Shown here piece by piece: positions 57,153 to 63,802 of a DNA stretch of 64,000 nt. Made by a program: the position numbers and the translations under genes. The notes beneath the pieces were generated by a model. The model did no database searches, was not told the DNA's origin, and was given only the letters and a program-made list of their open reading frames with translations. The stretch spans positions 1-64,000 of the forward strand of contig CAJTDS010000015.1 in the NCBI GenBank assembly GCA_910575165.1, read 5' to 3'. This DNA comes from Eggerthellaceae bacterium (GTDB lineage: Bacteria; Actinomycetota; Coriobacteriia; Coriobacteriales; Eggerthellaceae). Each line of letters starts with the position of its first letter. The stretch's first letter is position 1.

Positions 57153-57287
57153 TTACACGCAGAGGCGCTTGCGGCCCTTGGCGCGGCGGCGGGCCAGAAC
57201 GCTGCGGCCGCCCTTCGTGGCCATGCGAGCACGGAAACCGTGGCACTTGGCACGCTTACGCTTGTTAGGTTGATAGGTGCGCTTCAT
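57153..57287 (-). CDS. rpmH: 50S ribosomal protein L34
   Basis: A 44-residue protein: [20 protein letters not shown] at the start, then a long basic helix ending GRKRLCV. L34 is part of the large ribosomal subunit. It has an AAAGGGAAG site and opens the leftward rpmH-rnpA-yidD-yidC-jag-rsmG group beside the origin. Confidence 0.96.
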
Positions 57288-57561: not shown

Positions 57562-58746
57562 TTAGATTGTCCGGGACGCTATGATGTTGCCGATTTCGGT
57601 AAGACCCCGTTTCTTATCGTCGTACTTCATCACAAGACCTTTAGCTTCCAGCTTCTCAAACACCGCAGACGTCGACGAAGAGGCGAGGTTGAGAATCTTC
57701 CCAAGCTGGGATCCTCTGATAGGCCCCTGTTGATACATAATCGCCATTGCGTCGAGCTCGCGCTGGGTGAGCTCGGGGATATCCACCGAATACCCGCGGC
57801 CATGGGACTGCCCGACGAGAACACCTGACGCCACCGAAGGCGACGCGGGAACCGGCTGCTGAACGGGTTGTCCGGGCACATACTGAGCGGTAGGAACCTG
57901 CTGAGTGTAAGGGTAGGTCGCCTGGGGGGCTACGTACACCGGCGCAGGCGCCATGGAAGCCATATACGGGGACGAAGGCTCGTAGCCAACCGCCGGTTGG
58001 GGGTAGACGCCAGGTGCAGCAGGCTGCGAGACTTGGGCAGGCACGAAACTCGCAGAGCCAGCCTGCGGCGCGCCGGATCCAACAGACGCCGTCCCTGACC
58101 CGTTGGGGAAATAGGCTATCGAGGGACCCGATGACACTCCATAGGTAGAAACCTCGCCGCCCGTTTCGGCTGGTCTCGTAGCAAGGGGGGACGAAGGCTC
58201 TCCCGAAACAGCCCCGTCCTGCACCAAGCTGATGGTCACCACGGCGCCGGTACCCAAATTGTCCTCGATGGTCACTCGGCCGCGGGAAAGCTCCATGTAC
58301 TCGCGCACAATGGGGAGACCGCTGCCCACGCCGCGGATGTAAGGCTTCATAGGCTCGATGGCGCGGGTGAACCCCGGCTGCTGGGCGCGCTCCTTGTCGG
58401 GAATACCGGGACCCTGGTCGGTGAACCGGACGGTGTTTCCCCGATCCAAAATGGAAACGGTGGCCTCGGCGAAGCGCGCATGGATGAAATTCTCCGACAC
58501 TTCCCGAATTGCCATGTAGGGCAGCGACCCTCCGGCGTTTCTCGCCTCGTTGTAGACGATTTGGGAAAGGTTCTCTATGAACGTGGCGGTATCGGCCGGG
58601 GGCACCACCACCATGCGCGGGATGCTGTGCCCGTCGTCGTAAACGGCGATGCGAACCGGATTCACCACGTTCGAATAATCGTAGGGCAGCCCTTCAGAAT
58701 AATTTGAATCACGCACTTCATCTGGGATTTCATTCTGGTTGTTCAT
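57562..58746 (-). CDS. GHKL ATPase fused to a C-terminal winged helix, beside oriC
   Basis: A 394-residue protein. Residues about 60-190 are a HATPase_c domain: N box EVSENFIHARF, G1 box DQGPGIPD, and G2 box GVGSGLPIVREYMELS. No phosphoacceptor His domain is present. A Pro/Gln/Tyr-rich linker follows, then a winged helix (LTQRELDAMAIMYQQGPIRG, LGKILNLASSSTSAVFEKLE) of MarR-like type. A sensor-kinase or anti-sigma-like ATPase joined to a DNA-binding domain is unusual. It is a single gene between rpmH and dnaA. Confidence 0.75.
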   Translation of the reverse strand: MNNQNEIPDEVRDSNYSEGLPYDYSNVVNPVRIAVYDDGHSIPRMVVVPPADTATFIENLSQIVYNEARNAGGSLPYMAIREVSENFIHARFAEATVSILDRGNTVRFTDQGPGIPDKERAQQPGFTRAIEPMKPYIRGVGSGLPIVREYMELSRGRVTIEDNLGTGAVVTISLVQDGAVSGEPSSPLATRPAETGGEVSTYGVSSGPSIAYFPNGSGTASVGSGAPQAGSASFVPAQVSQPAAPGVYPQPAVGYEPSSPYMASMAPAPVYVAPQATYPYTQQVPTAQYVPGQPVQQPVPASPSVASGVLVGQSHGRGYSVDIPELTQRELDAMAIMYQQGPIRGSQLGKILNLASSSTSAVFEKLEAKGLVMKYDDKKRGLTEIGNIIASRTI

Positions 58747-59345
58747 ATATGTTCCGTTGTTCAGAATTCCAGTATTCCAAGGGTTTCAGAGCGTTTTCCG
58801 AAAAGATTGTACCTGTTTTCGAATTCTAAAACCATCCATCAGGGTTAACGCTCATCATTTCAGGTGGAAAACATAGTTTTCTGAGTTTTCAACAACTTGC
58901 TCATCTCGATTTTTCAGAGTTTTCCCCTTTTTGTTCAGAGAAAGTGGAAAACATTGAAGAATTCTCAAATTCATCGATTCGGCGGCGTGAAAAACCGTCC
59001 AAGAATGTGAAATAAAAGCCGTCCCAGCCAAAACAACCCCATATGTTCGCCCTTGTTTCCAGAAGACCTCCTACAGAATCTCCGTGACCTCGCCTTATGA
59101 CGCCTTTGAAAATCATTTTCGGAGGCGCTATGGCGAACTTGTTCTATTTTCCCAGTTCAAGTAAATGTTATCTTAACCAGACAAAATCAAATCACCTGAT
59201 AGAAGCGCTACGCGTCGTTCATGGAAACACGCTTGACAAAACAGCGTAAAAGGTTTTTCCACAAGCCGTCATGTATCGGAGGGTTTGTTTTTAACCTTTT
59301 CCACATTTTACGGCTGTTCGATAGGAATTACAGCCCCCATCCCCT
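58747..59345. other. oriC: Candidate chromosomal origin (oriC) upstream of dnaA
   Basis: A gene-free, AT-rich spacer with DnaA-box-like TTTTCCACA/TGTTTTCCAC sites: inverted at 58864-58873 and 58944-58953, direct at 59255-59263 and 59297-59305. These differ from the E. coli TTATCCACA by one base and resemble boxes of some Actinobacteria. Adjacent short TTTTC/GAAAA tracts may serve as weaker boxes. Position between rpmH and dnaA supports an origin; it is not proven by sequence alone. Confidence 0.65.
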
Positions 59346-59350
59346 ACAAT
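59322..59350 (+). promoter_or_regulatory. Putative dnaA promoter
   Basis: TAGGAA (59322-59327), 17 bases, TACAAT (59345-59350) point at dnaA. They would give a 5' leader of about 365 bases and overlap the in-frame ATG at 59349, arguing that this ATG is not the start. Confidence 0.45.
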
Positions 59351-59720
59351 GTCAACGAGAGAACCCCGTGTGAGCACCGGCTGGAAACGTTTTTCACAGC
59401 CGGCAGTTCCGAAACCTGCAAAGAGGAGCGTCGGCGGGGGACGACACACCGAGGCAACGGCTGCGGAGTCGAAAGGGCGTCCGGGTCGCCAGAAGCGGAA
59501 GAAACAGAAGCGGAAAAGAAGCGAAAACGGCAGAAGAGGCGAAACCAGAACCTCTGATGGCGAAACGGGATGTGCGACGGCTAGAAGGCAGGGCGGGAAA
59601 GCCGGCCCTTCGGTGCCGAAGCGAAGCAAACGGAAACAGTGGCGGCACGAAGAGAGCGAAAGCGGCGGCGTCGCGAAAAGAGCAGAAGCGGGACGTGCCG
59701 GAGGAAAGGCCAAGGGACCC

Positions 59721-61316
59721 ATGAACAACCTGGAACTCGAACGCACATGGGCTGATGTAACGGAACGGGTGAAAAGCTACCCCGGCGTAAGCGCGCCCCA
59801 GGTGGACGCGTTCTTCATGCGCCTGCACCCCCAGGCCGCGAGCGAAGGGTTCCTCATGCTCACCGCCGACAACGACTTCATAAAGAAGCATATAGAGCAG
59901 AACTTCCTCGAACACATCACCCGGGCGATGGAGGAGTGGTCGGGGGTAGCGTCCACCGTGCTCATAGAGGTGGACGAGCCGAGCTCGGCACCGAGCGCGC
60001 CGGCGCAGCAGGCCTCCGACACGCCTGCCGTATCGCCTGCGGCCCCTGTTGCCGCGCCGCAGGCCCCCAACCAACCGGCGGGCGACGCCGGCGCCGAGCA
60101 GGCGTGGGGGGCCCAGGGCGTACCGGCGGCCAGAGCACCCGAAACCGTTGCGGCAGCAGATCGGGCAGTACCCGCCGCAGCAGAGGCAAATGCTGCGCCT
60201 GCAAGCACCCGATCAGAGAAAACGGCGGATACCCCCGAAAGGCGGGGACTCGACGACGCCACCACGGGAAGCATGTCCTTTGAGAACTTCGTCGTGGGCG
60301 ACTCGAACGCCATTGCCTTCGACGCCGCCATGAAGGTGGCAGAGCATCCGGGGCTGCCCATGTCGAACCCGCTGTTTATCTATGGGAAGAGCGGTCTTGG
60401 CAAAACGCACCTGCTGCGGGCCATAGAAAAGTACATCAACGAGAACATGACCTTCCGCAAGACGGTCTACGTAGACACGAACTCCCTGGTGGACGACTAC
60501 GTGGAGGCCGGGCGCGTGCAAGCCCAGGACCGCACCAGCTACCGGGCGTTCAAGGACCGCTACGAGAGCGCCGACGTGCTGCTGGTGGACGACGTGCAGC
60601 ACCTGCAGGGCAAGAAGCTGACGCTGGACGCGGTGTTCCAGATGTTCAACAAACTCATCGACAGCGGCAAGCAAATCATCTTGTCGGCCGACCGAAGCCC
60701 TTCCAACATCGACATCGACGAGCGTTACACCTCCCGCTTCAACCAGGGAATGACCTGCGACATTCAACCGCCCACGGTGGAAACGAAGCTGGGAATCATC
60801 AAGAACCACATCGACGACCTGTGTGCCATGGAGCCCAGCGGAGGCTTCCAGCTGTCGCGGGAAGCCCAGACCTGCATCGCCGAGATGAGCGGCAGCAATA
60901 TCCGCGAGCTCAAAAGCGCCGTGGGGCGCATCTACCAGCAGATGAGGACGTTCCAGATGGACGAAATCTCGGTGGGAGAGGTAAAAAGCGTGCTGGAAGG
61001 ATACTTCAGCAGCGGCCCCTCCCGCCGCATCCTCGTCCCCGACGTACAGCGCGAGGTTGAGTCTCATTACAAGGTAAGTCACGCCGACCTGATCGGGAAG
61101 AAACGCTCGCGCAACATCGCCCATGCCCGGCATGTGGCCATCTACCTGTGCCGCGAGATGATAGACCTGCCGTTCGGAGACATCGGAAAGCAGTTCGGAA
61201 ACCGCGACCATACCACGGTGATGTACGCCTACAAGACCATAGGGGGCAAGCTGCCGAAGGACCGGACCCTCCAGGAAGAGATAGAGTTGCTGCGCCAATC
61301 CATCAGAGACGCGTAG
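59721..61316 (+). CDS. dnaA: Chromosomal replication initiator DnaA
   Basis: A 531-residue protein from the ATG at 59721. Domain I is LERTWADVTERVKSYPGVSA onward; domain II is a long Ala/Pro linker; the AAA core has GKSGLGKTHLL (Walker A) and VLLVDDVQHL (Walker B); domain IV ends with GNRDHTTVMYAYKTI, which binds DnaA boxes. The frame is open back to 59349 and would add 124 Arg/Lys/Gly-rich residues unlike known DnaA; I place the start at domain I. dnaN and recF follow in the same direction. Confidence 0.95.
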   Translation: MNNLELERTWADVTERVKSYPGVSAPQVDAFFMRLHPQAASEGFLMLTADNDFIKKHIEQNFLEHITRAMEEWSGVASTVLIEVDEPSSAPSAPAQQASDTPAVSPAAPVAAPQAPNQPAGDAGAEQAWGAQGVPAARAPETVAAADRAVPAAAEANAAPASTRSEKTADTPERRGLDDATTGSMSFENFVVGDSNAIAFDAAMKVAEHPGLPMSNPLFIYGKSGLGKTHLLRAIEKYINENMTFRKTVYVDTNSLVDDYVEAGRVQAQDRTSYRAFKDRYESADVLLVDDVQHLQGKKLTLDAVFQMFNKLIDSGKQIILSADRSPSNIDIDERYTSRFNQGMTCDIQPPTVETKLGIIKNHIDDLCAMEPSGGFQLSREAQTCIAEMSGSNIRELKSAVGRIYQQMRTFQMDEISVGEVKSVLEGYFSSGPSRRILVPDVQREVESHYKVSHADLIGKKRSRNIAHARHVAIYLCREMIDLPFGDIGKQFGNRDHTTVMYAYKTIGGKLPKDRTLQEEIELLRQSIRDA

Positions 61317-61576: not shown

Positions 61577-62674
61577 ATGAAGTTCGTCATCAACCAGTCG
61601 GAGTTCCAAAGCGCCCTCAGCATCGTGCAGAAGGGAGCCTCCACGCGCTCGACCCTGCCTATCCTAGCAGGCATCTACATCGAGGCGCGGGGCGACTCCA
61701 TCACCCTGCAGGCCACTGACCTAGAGCTTTCCATCCAATACACCGTGAACGCCATGGTGGAGGAGGAGGGACGAGCGGTGTTTCCCGCGAAGCTGACCCT
61801 GGACGTGGTCAAGAACCTGTCCAACGCGGCGGTGTACGTGGTGGCCGAGGAGGACTCCGCGATCATCACCTGTGACACCACCTCGTTCTCGCTGAAGACG
61901 CTGGACCCCGAGGACTTCCCCGGTTTCCCGAAGGTGAGCACCGAACAGGAGATATCCATCCCGTTCAGCATGTTCTCCCAGATGGTGAAGCGCGTGGAGA
62001 AGATGGTGTCGCGCGACGAGAGCCGACCGATCTTCACCGGCATCCTGGTGTCGCTGGAGGGCGGTTCGCTTAAGATGGTGGCCACCGACACCTACCGGCT
62101 GGCCTTGGCTGAGGCCGACCTGGCCTGCGAAGCAGAGGACTTCCAGGCCGTGATCTCGGGCGCCTTCATGCGCGAGCTGGCCGCCCTGGCCCCCTCCGAC
62201 GAGGGCATTCACCTGGCCCTGGCCGAGAACCAGATCGTGGCCCACTACCGCAACACGGTGTTCATCAACCGCCGCATCGAGGGCAACTTCCCCAACTACC
62301 GCATGCTCATCCCCGATTCCTACAACACCCGCGTGAAGGTGGACCAGCAGCGTCTGACCCAGGCCGTGCGCCGCATGAGCGTTATCGGTCGCGCCGATGC
62401 GCGGGTGGTGTTCAACATCTCCCCCGAGGCCAAGACTCTGCAGTTGACCAGCGTGGAGCAGGACGTGGGAAGCGCCCAGGAAGTGGTGTCCTGCGAAGGG
62501 GAAGGCGAGGAGCTGGCCATCTCGTTCAACTGCTCCTACGTGCTGGACGGCCTGTCGGCCCTTGGTGGCGAGGAGGCCTATCTGGAGACCACCACCAACC
62601 GGCAGCCGGGCATCTTCCGCTCCGCCGACGCCTCCGACAAGTTCCTGTACTTCGTCGTTCCCATCTCCATGTAA
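61577..62674 (+). CDS. dnaN: DNA polymerase III sliding clamp (beta subunit)
   Basis: A 365-residue clamp protein with the three repeated clamp domains. The N-terminus MKFVINQSEFQSALSIVQKG and the C-terminal FVVPISM are typical. It holds polymerase on DNA and loads many repair proteins. It lies between dnaA and recF. Confidence 0.96.
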   Translation: MKFVINQSEFQSALSIVQKGASTRSTLPILAGIYIEARGDSITLQATDLELSIQYTVNAMVEEEGRAVFPAKLTLDVVKNLSNAAVYVVAEEDSAIITCDTTSFSLKTLDPEDFPGFPKVSTEQEISIPFSMFSQMVKRVEKMVSRDESRPIFTGILVSLEGGSLKMVATDTYRLALAEADLACEAEDFQAVISGAFMRELAALAPSDEGIHLALAENQIVAHYRNTVFINRRIEGNFPNYRMLIPDSYNTRVKVDQQRLTQAVRRMSVIGRADARVVFNISPEAKTLQLTSVEQDVGSAQEVVSCEGEGEELAISFNCSYVLDGLSALGGEEAYLETTTNRQPGIFRSADASDKFLYFVVPISM

Positions 62675-62686
62675 GAAGGCCGGCCC

Positions 62687-63802
62687 TTGAGGGTGCAGAG
62701 CCTGACATTGCGCGACTTCCGCAGCTACCAAGCCCTTCGTCTGGAGGGGCTTGGCATGCTGACGGTGTTCTCCGGCCGCAACGCCGCCGGGAAGACGAAC
62801 CTGCTGGAGGCCCTGGCCCTGCTCACCTCCCGGTCGTCGTTTCGCAGCCCCCGTGTGCCCGAGCTGGTGCGCGAGGGTGCAGAGCGCGCCAACGTATCCG
62901 CCGAGCTGGGGGATGGGCAGCGGCTGGTGCAGGTGGAGATGGTGGTGGACGAGGGCCGCAGGCGCTTTCGGGTGAACGGCAAGCCGAAGCAGCCCTCGGC
63001 ATTGGCGGGCCTGCTGCCGTCGGTGGCCTTCACCCCCGACGACCTGGCCTTGGCCAAAGGGGGCATGGCCAGCCGCCGGGGCGCCTTGGACAGCCTGGGC
63101 GGGCAGCTGTCGGCCAACCACGACCAGGTGAGGCGTGATTTCGAGAAGGCTCTGGCCTTCAAGAACCGCCTGCTCAAAGAGGATGCCTCCGACGGCTACC
63201 TGGACAGTATCGACGAGACGCTGGCCCTGTGCGGGGCCATGCTTTCCTGCTACCGGGCCGCGCTCTTCCGTCGTCTGCAGGACGCGCTGCGGCTGTGGTA
63301 CGGGCGCATCTCCGACGGCGAGGACGTGCGCGGCGAGTACCTCCCCTCGTGGCTTGACGACGAGTCGTCCGACCCGCCGGAGTTCGGCCGCGACGAGGCC
63401 CGCGAGCGCCTGCGCGCGTGCATGGCGCAACGGCGCCCCGAGGAGCGCGCACGGCGGCGCGCTGTGGTGGGACCCCATGCGGACAAGGTGCGGCTGCTGG
63501 TGGAGGGTCATGCCCTCGAGCGCTTCGGCAGCCAAGGCCAGCAGCGCAGCGCCGTGCTGGCGTGGAAGCTGGCGGAGGTGTCGGTGATCCAGGATGTGCT
63601 GTCGGTGAAGCCGGTGCTGCTGCTGGACGACGTTATGAGCGAGCTGGACGAGCGCCGCCGCCGCGCCCTGGTGGAGTACGCCGTGGGCGATATGCAGACC
63701 TTCATCACCACGGCGAACCTCGATTACTTCGACGCTTCCCTGCTAGATGCCGCCCGGGTGGTGGCGTTGCAGCGGCTGGAAGGTGTCACGACCGTCGTCT
63801 AG
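62687..63802 (+). CDS. recF: DNA replication and repair protein RecF
   Basis: A 371-residue SMC-like ATPase. The Walker A lies in FSGRNAAGKTNLLEALALL, and the signature and Walker B are in FGSQGQQRSAVLAWKLAE and VLLLDDVMSELDERRR. It helps load RecA at gaps. The start is a TTG at 62687, seven bases after GAAGG; the GTG at 62693 is an alternative. The gene starts 12 bases after the dnaN stop. Confidence 0.95.
   Translation: MRVQSLTLRDFRSYQALRLEGLGMLTVFSGRNAAGKTNLLEALALLTSRSSFRSPRVPELVREGAERANVSAELGDGQRLVQVEMVVDEGRRRFRVNGKPKQPSALAGLLPSVAFTPDDLALAKGGMASRRGALDSLGGQLSANHDQVRRDFEKALAFKNRLLKEDASDGYLDSIDETLALCGAMLSCYRAALFRRLQDALRLWYGRISDGEDVRGEYLPSWLDDESSDPPEFGRDEARERLRACMAQRRPEERARRRAVVGPHADKVRLLVEGHALERFGSQGQQRSAVLAWKLAEVSVIQDVLSVKPVLLLDDVMSELDERRRRALVEYAVGDMQTFITTANLDYFDASLLDAARVVALQRLEGVTTVV

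Follow-up and report, generated by a model that had tools for sequence, protein, structure and literature searches.

A GHKL ATPase-winged helix fusion gene kept beside dnaA in several lineages of Actinomycetota: a candidate regulator of initiator supply

Introduction

Why should a gene that joins an ATP-binding domain to a DNA-binding winged helix lie beside dnaA, and could its product influence how much initiator a cell contains? Control of the initiation of chromosome replication is understood mainly in Escherichia coli and Bacillus subtilis. According to the accessible portion of PMC5720831, no homologues of the known DnaA regulators have been identified in many bacteria, among them mycobacteria. 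The autoregulation of dnaA in E. coli, in which DnaA takes part along with other factors, has been reviewed (PMC8203912, available in part). Actinobacterial development is treated in the accessible portion of PMC4255298.

The gene considered here, for which the name GM (GHKL-winged-helix gene) is used, lies in a stretch of 64,000 nucleotides from an Eggerthellaceae bacterium, the whole of which is referred to as the window (Table 1). A sequence-only reading of the window had described GM as a GHKL ATPase fused to a MarR-like winged helix, had assigned it a fixed place between rpmH and dnaA, and had proposed a link to origin control or growth state. The observation is confirmed, and the interpretation is partly supported, its reach having been understated, in that GM is found in several lineages of the phylum. 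No description of GM was recognized in searches of the full-text literature, beyond whose reach most subscription journals lie, and none is present in the accessible portions of PMC8203912, PMC9137472, PMC4255298, and PMC8146576. A gene that keeps to dnaA in several Actinomycetota lineages, and whose domains suggest direct signaling from ATP to DNA, is a specific and testable candidate, and GM stands as a good one for a hitherto unstudied control over the timing of chromosome copying in these bacteria.

Table 1. Features of the GM-dnaA region of the window; start codons are estimates throughout.
Feature	Position	Strand	Basis or remark
GM	57562..58746	-	394 aa; list of open reading frames and Pfam
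GHKL (HATPase_c) ATP-binding domain, residues 24-178	58213..58677	-	Pfam, structure model, residue counts
GHKL motifs: N box E82..N86..H89; G1 box D110-x-G112-x-G114; G2 box G139-x-G141-x-G143; G167			
Low-complexity Pro/Gln/Ala/Ser linker, about residues 179-321	57784..58212	-	predicted to be disordered; variable across the family
MarR-like winged helix, residues 322-394, wing K379-R380	57565..57783	-	Pfam, model, family profile
rpmH, first of the run rpmH-rnpA-yidD-yidC-jag-rsmG	57153..57287	-	
dnaA	59721..61316	+	
dnaN	61577..62674	+	
recF	62687..63802	+	
Origin-like spacer separating the divergent GM and dnaA genes	58747..59720		974 bp; putative origin function
-10-like promoter sequence GGTACAAT, 60 nt upstream of the GM start	58806..58813	-	pattern and alignment of relatives; putative function
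Degenerate copy of the CCCAGGTGGATRGATTC element, window version CCCTGATGGATGGTTTTA	58827..58844	-	
DnaA box TTTTCCACA	59255..59263	+	exact
DnaA box TTTTCCACA	59297..59305	+	exact
Three DnaA-box-like 9-mers within 58863..58951	58863-58871; 58886-58894; 58943-58951	-; +; -	

Domain Architecture and Conservation of GM

Both halves of GM are readily recognized. The HATPase_c domain is matched over residues 77-174 (7.1e-11, above the Pfam cut-off) and the MarR domain over residues 326-378 (1.1e-8; 35.3 bits vs. a Pfam cut-off of 24.6), while an AlphaFold2 model built with 63 relatives displays pLDDT values above 90 over most of both domains, a disordered linker and, outside the two domains, nothing other than this linker and a short N-terminal extension. 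Modeled alone, the GHKL domain reaches a mean pLDDT of 94.7. With both domains above their cut-offs and a confident model, the open reading frame and the pair of domains that the sequence-only reading had described are real. The absence of a phosphoacceptor domain, which it had also noted, is borne out by a lack of HisKA/DHp among Pfam matches up to E 10; judged by this lack, GM would not belong among the two-component histidine kinases, and its intact N, G1, and G2 boxes would place it within the GHKL superfamily. GM is single-copy in its own genome, where two further matches are weak GHKL proteins with 32% identity.

Conservation was followed through 135 stretches of DNA, comprising the window, 75 loci found with peptide patterns (nearly all from Eggerthellales) and 59 stretches from further genomes that were picked by hand from the match lists of the class and the phylum; all 135 GM proteins are distinct. 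Residues E82, N86, H89, D110, G112, G114, G139, G143, G156, and G167 are invariant in all of them, G141 is present in 134, and Pfam PF02518 is found in each of the 63 members of the family alignment A2. Using a profile derived from one half of the family, the winged helix was recovered in the same open reading frame in 133 of the 135 proteins, the exceptions being one without a match (L074) and one whose value of 0.0015 falls short of the threshold (L126), and no relative was seen in which the domains are split into two genes; the fusion is not an artifact. Position 380 of the wing is Arg in 124 and position 379 is Lys or Arg in 114 of the 135 proteins. Judged from sequence, ATP sensing and DNA binding would fit the ATP site, which is intact and conserved, and the basic wing of the winged helix. 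What does not hold for the family is the Pro/Gln-rich linker, through which the sequence-only reading had the two domains joined: the linker measures 145 residues in the window and ranges from 6 to 164 residues (median 27), so that the long version found in the window is not essential.

Distances between GM proteins correlate with those between the corresponding DnaA proteins (r 0.82 over 122 loci; none of 500 permutations as high), and with a median identity of 43%, vs. 37% for DnaA, GM is no less conserved than its neighbor. Because relatedness alone yields such a coefficient for any vertically inherited pair, these values demonstrate vertical descent rather than interaction. The possibility that the DnaA of the window, which sits on a long branch, has been specially accelerated was considered and dropped, as dnaN and recF of this lineage are also divergent.

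Relationship of GM to Known Protein Families

The best fold match of the GHKL domain is 3lmm (Z 14.3, rmsd 2.9, 149 aligned), whose protein, DIP2311, we take to be a member of the SLFN_AlbA_2 - HATPase_c_4 - winged-helix regulators (PF04326 + PF13749). These regulators have the same order as GM, a GHKL fold followed by a C-terminal winged helix, and their profile runs collinear with GM through both domains (168 columns, 96.5%). Unlike them, GM contains no AlbA_2 domain among Pfam matches up to E 10, returns no match to HATPase_c_4 (PF13749) in the window protein, retains the canonical DxGxG and GxGxG motifs, and is confined to a single, dnaA-linked locus. When profiles are compared using the ATPase domain alone, histidine kinases score 99.7, AlbA_2/HATPase_c_4 regulators 27.7, and RsbW-like proteins 17.7, the histidine-kinase and RsbW-like profiles being small (13 and 7 rows) and rough. 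We read this as an architecture held in common and not as membership. The notion of GM as a truncated AlbA_2 regulator was likewise set aside as a structural parallel only, since the agreement in fold does not extend to the ATPase sequence, for which histidine kinases are closer. An AlbA_2 - HATPase_c_4 regulator of similar domain order is present in the same genome as GM (L151 556-2007, contig C9), where it is the sole PF13749 match.

Next among the fold matches are histidine kinases (Z 11.4) and SpoIIAB (Z 11.2, rmsd 3.0, 122 aligned), which are tied. Like GM, the HATPase_c domain of histidine kinases and of stand-alone HATPase regulators contains N, G1, and G2 boxes in an ATP site of the Bergerat type. 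SpoIIAB and RsbW resemble GM in having a GHKL domain without HisKA; GM differs from them by its fused winged helix, and no sigma factor or anti-anti-sigma partner is seen alongside it. That GM might be an anti-sigma factor, a suspicion raised by the likeness to SpoIIAB, was lowered by a TIGR01925 score of 18.9 bits against a cut-off of 135 and by the profile comparison given above.

In the MarR family, as it is defined, outer dimerization helices flank the winged helix. GM carries the winged-helix core (structural matches to MarR cores with a Z of about 14, covering some 74 residues), and in the model the N- and C-terminal dimerization helices are missing, with no linker helix before residue 328 and the protein ending at residue 394; dimerization of GM, if any, must therefore come from elsewhere. 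A stand-alone HATPase regulator has been described in Streptomyces, namely SspH, whose function requires the N-box Asn and an Asp; like GM it is without HisKA, and GM differs by the addition of a winged helix (PMC9137472, available in part).

Genomic Position of GM

Within the 128 stretches that carry both genes, GM adjoins dnaA in every one. It lies directly upstream of dnaA and on the same strand in 126, with a median gap of 63.5 bp (<150 bp in 114 of the 126), and is divergent from dnaA across the origin region in two, the window and locus L042, in which the operon link is broken. In the other seven of the 135, dnaA lies off the stretch; five of these (L107, L111, L118, L119, and L136) have GM at a contig end and dnaA opening the other end of the same contig, as expected for circular records cut between the two genes. 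Since the stretches were chosen for holding GM, the adjacency figure is conditional on its presence. Outside of the Coriobacteriia, 36 of 119 matching genomes, from 20 family groups, were examined, and dnaA was on the stretch in 31 and adjoined GM in all 31. Random scattering of orthologues, which would speak against a fixed place, was accordingly not seen, and there was no GM match in the plasmid collection and no relative in viral contigs.

Three layouts, with strands in parentheses, were distinguished: A, rpmH(-) GM(+) dnaA(+) dnaN(+); B, dnaN(-) GM(+) dnaA(+) rpmH(+); and C, rpmH(-) GM(-) dnaA(+) dnaN(+). The 73 classified Eggerthellales loci (the window and L004-L078) comprise 39 of layout A, 32 of layout B, in which the GM-dnaA block is flipped such that GM faces the dnaN side, and two of layout C. 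A quick tree of the Eggerthellales DnaA proteins, in which several forks are open and some branches long, calls for at least seven changes of layout, four of them forced by starred branches, and GM was beside dnaA every time, while rpmH and dnaN switched sides relative to the GM-dnaA block. The two layout C loci fall apart from each other on this tree, and the window's own genus contains one relative of layout A, one of layout B, and a third with GM beside dnaN at a contig end. The fixed place between rpmH and dnaA claimed by the sequence-only reading is thus correct for the window and some lineages and fails in the 32 loci with the flipped block: the constant neighbor of GM is dnaA, not rpmH, and the divergent layout of the window is a derived exception. 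In the layouts seen, no other gene is a conserved partner beside GM. What can be read from the conserved linkage is selection for proximity or co-expression, not which product acts on which. As a separate observation, the repeated inversion of the dnaA block with respect to dnaN and rpmH in Eggerthellales is unusual for so conserved a neighborhood.

Distribution and Loss of GM

Across the Coriobacteriia, where the same fusion and position were sought, GM was found in 343 of 396 sampled genomes, two of which (G384 and G057) match weakly (about 1e-7) and may contain another GHKL protein, and in 295 of 314 when only good-quality genomes are counted; wherever a stretch carries both genes, dnaA adjoins. 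In a sample of 396 genomes from the Actinomycetota as a whole, 157 have GM, 119 of them outside the Coriobacteriia, including Rubrobacter xylanophilus (strains AA3-22 and DSM 9941; the accession of the latter is given in the accessible portion of PMC8146576). The remaining 239 phylum-wide genomes have no GM match, and Actinomycetota outside the matched families manage without GM.

A profile search of 20 of the 53 Coriobacteriia genomes without a match revealed no convincing GM in any. In 17 of these 20 dnaA is absent as well, and one gap in the assembly probably explains the lack of both genes. In three genomes of one genus (G161, G226, and G329), dnaA and the whole rpmH side lie uninterrupted on one contig without GM, and here the absence is a genuine loss, which indicates that GM is not universally needed and argues against strict essentiality. 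These three loci (L152, L153, and L154) also constitute a natural experiment on GM function.

The Region Upstream of GM

A -10 sequence of the TAYAAT type is present 20-110 nt upstream of GM in 43 regions (drawn from the window, L004-L078, and L137), and 24 of these 43 Eggerthellales promoters have a CAGGTG-like core 31-33 bp further upstream. In relatives, a 17-bp element, CCCAGGTGGATRGATTC, overlaps the -35 region of the GM promoter. The best genome-wide match to this element is the GM promoter in eight of eight genomes, with no mismatches in five and two mismatches in the three genomes of group g10, as expected of a locus-specific rather than a global factor; further sites with two mismatches number one in G200, one in G009, and two in G250. 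The element is weakly symmetric (complementarity 0.39 vs. a mean of 0.27 over 18 non-redundant sites), and it could belong to DnaA or RNA polymerase.

Two further candidates did not survive scrutiny. A palindromic operator, TGAAT-N15-ATTCA, seen in a few genera, is not claimed as a GM site, given the weak symmetry over the 18 sites. A GM regulon reached through CCCAGGTGGATRGATTC was sought in the eight genomes, where matches with two to three mismatches exceed the reversed-pattern control, an excess that probably reflects codon usage.

DnaA boxes were called with variants that we presume to be those of the DnaA box. Upstream of GM, 228 exact boxes are present over 128 loci, vs. 6.1 expected from shuffled sequence. 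In the Rubrobacter family, exact boxes are concentrated in the dnaA-dnaN gap (15 and 16 in L102 and L132; 12, 14, and 16 in L147, L149, and L150), and the rpmH-GM gap has three in each of the four genomes in which that gap is complete. With the main cluster downstream of dnaA and GM still upstream, GM follows dnaA and not the cluster. The link proposed by the sequence-only reading is therefore revised to one with the dnaA gene and not with the origin itself.

Possible Function of GM

Computation establishes the fusion, the intact ATP site, the conserved winged helix, and an operon-like coupling to dnaA that is kept through rearrangement. The explanation that we consider best, with a probability of roughly one half, is that GM serves the GM-dnaA operon alone, as a one-component transcriptional regulator gated by nucleotide. 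ATP would be bound by the GHKL domain, and the nucleotide state would alter the GM dimer, or its contacts with other proteins, and thereby how tightly the C-terminal winged helix binds DNA; bound at the GM promoter, next to the DnaA boxes, the latter would govern the amounts of both GM and DnaA, so that initiator supply would follow energy or growth state. For the direction of the effect, repression is the default guess. With GM divergent in the window, its action on dnaA there would be in trans, over the origin region that both genes share. In this scheme, the binding of ATP, a DNA binding that depends on nucleotide, autoregulation, and control of initiator supply are activities predicted from sequence. 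Counting for it are the adjacency to dnaA through layout changes, the short gaps between the two genes, the position of GM away from the main box cluster in the Rubrobacter family, the correlated GM and DnaA distances, the joint absence of both genes from 17 of 20 genomes, the invariant ATP residues, the basic wing, and the genome-wide best match of the promoter element. Counting against it are the presence of this element in only 24 of 43 promoters, its degeneracy in the window, its weak symmetry, the uncoupled operon in the window and L042, the three genomes without GM, and the 239 genomes of the phylum sample without a match.

An alternative that we regard as rather unlikely is that GM acts directly in initiation, contacting DnaA or origin DNA and controlling assembly of the orisome and not transcription, much as SirA, YabA, Soj, and DiaA control orisome assembly in other bacteria. 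Genes of interacting proteins are often co-encoded, GM is co-inherited with DnaA, and the excess of DnaA boxes upstream of GM would suit such a role; yet in the Rubrobacter family GM has stayed on the opposite side of dnaA from the main box cluster, and winged helices with a basic wing are typical of transcription factors. Were the linkage a neutral relic, GM would be an ordinary regulator of other genes that shares an ancient promoter with dnaA, separation being rare with insertions near oriC selected against. The uncoupled operon in the window and L042 and the existence of GM-less lineages in one genus are what such a relic might leave behind, and we nonetheless hold it to be very improbable: at least seven layout changes left GM adjoining dnaA while rpmH and dnaN switched sides, and the best match of the CCCAGGTGGATRGATTC element lies at the GM promoter in all eight genomes.

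It is also improbable that the GHKL domain works in the manner of SpoIIAB and RsbW, as a switch that binds a protein or acts as a serine kinase, with a sigma factor or another protein as partner and the winged helix as DNA anchor. The N-box Glu acts as a base in kinases of this kind and is invariant in the GM family, the window protein has no HisKA match, and SpoIIAB is among the top folds; against this stand the low TIGR01925 score, profiles that favor histidine kinases over the seven-row RsbW-like set, and dnaA as the one conserved partner gene beside GM in the layouts seen. Returning to the nucleotide-gated regulator and its possible breadth, we suggest, tentatively, that GM may represent a new class of DnaA-control factor, ancestral to much of the Actinomycetota, in which a GHKL switch mounted on a winged helix ties the supply of initiator, or the assembly of the orisome, to the energy state of hosts that seem to lack the E. 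coli and B. subtilis regulators, such as SirA, YabA, Soj, Hda, DiaA, and SeqA.

Further Features of the Origin Region

The box cluster between dnaA and dnaN in the Rubrobacter family, unlike the arrangement in Coriobacteriia, suggests that the origin switched sides of dnaA within the phylum. In the window, a 124-codon open frame with many Lys and Arg codons occupies 59349-59720 (+) and runs in frame into dnaA, whose start is placed at 59721; it probably arose by chance, and an extended N-terminus of DnaA is the other possibility, not favored over chance. Finally, of 76 regions upstream of GM in Eggerthellales, 26 contain an exact 8-mer, TGAACTGG (CCAGTTCA), vs. 2.1 expected; it is found at 59152-59159 of the window, and in relatives it lies about 366-430 nt upstream of GM, mostly at a near-constant distance, and is perhaps an element of the origin.
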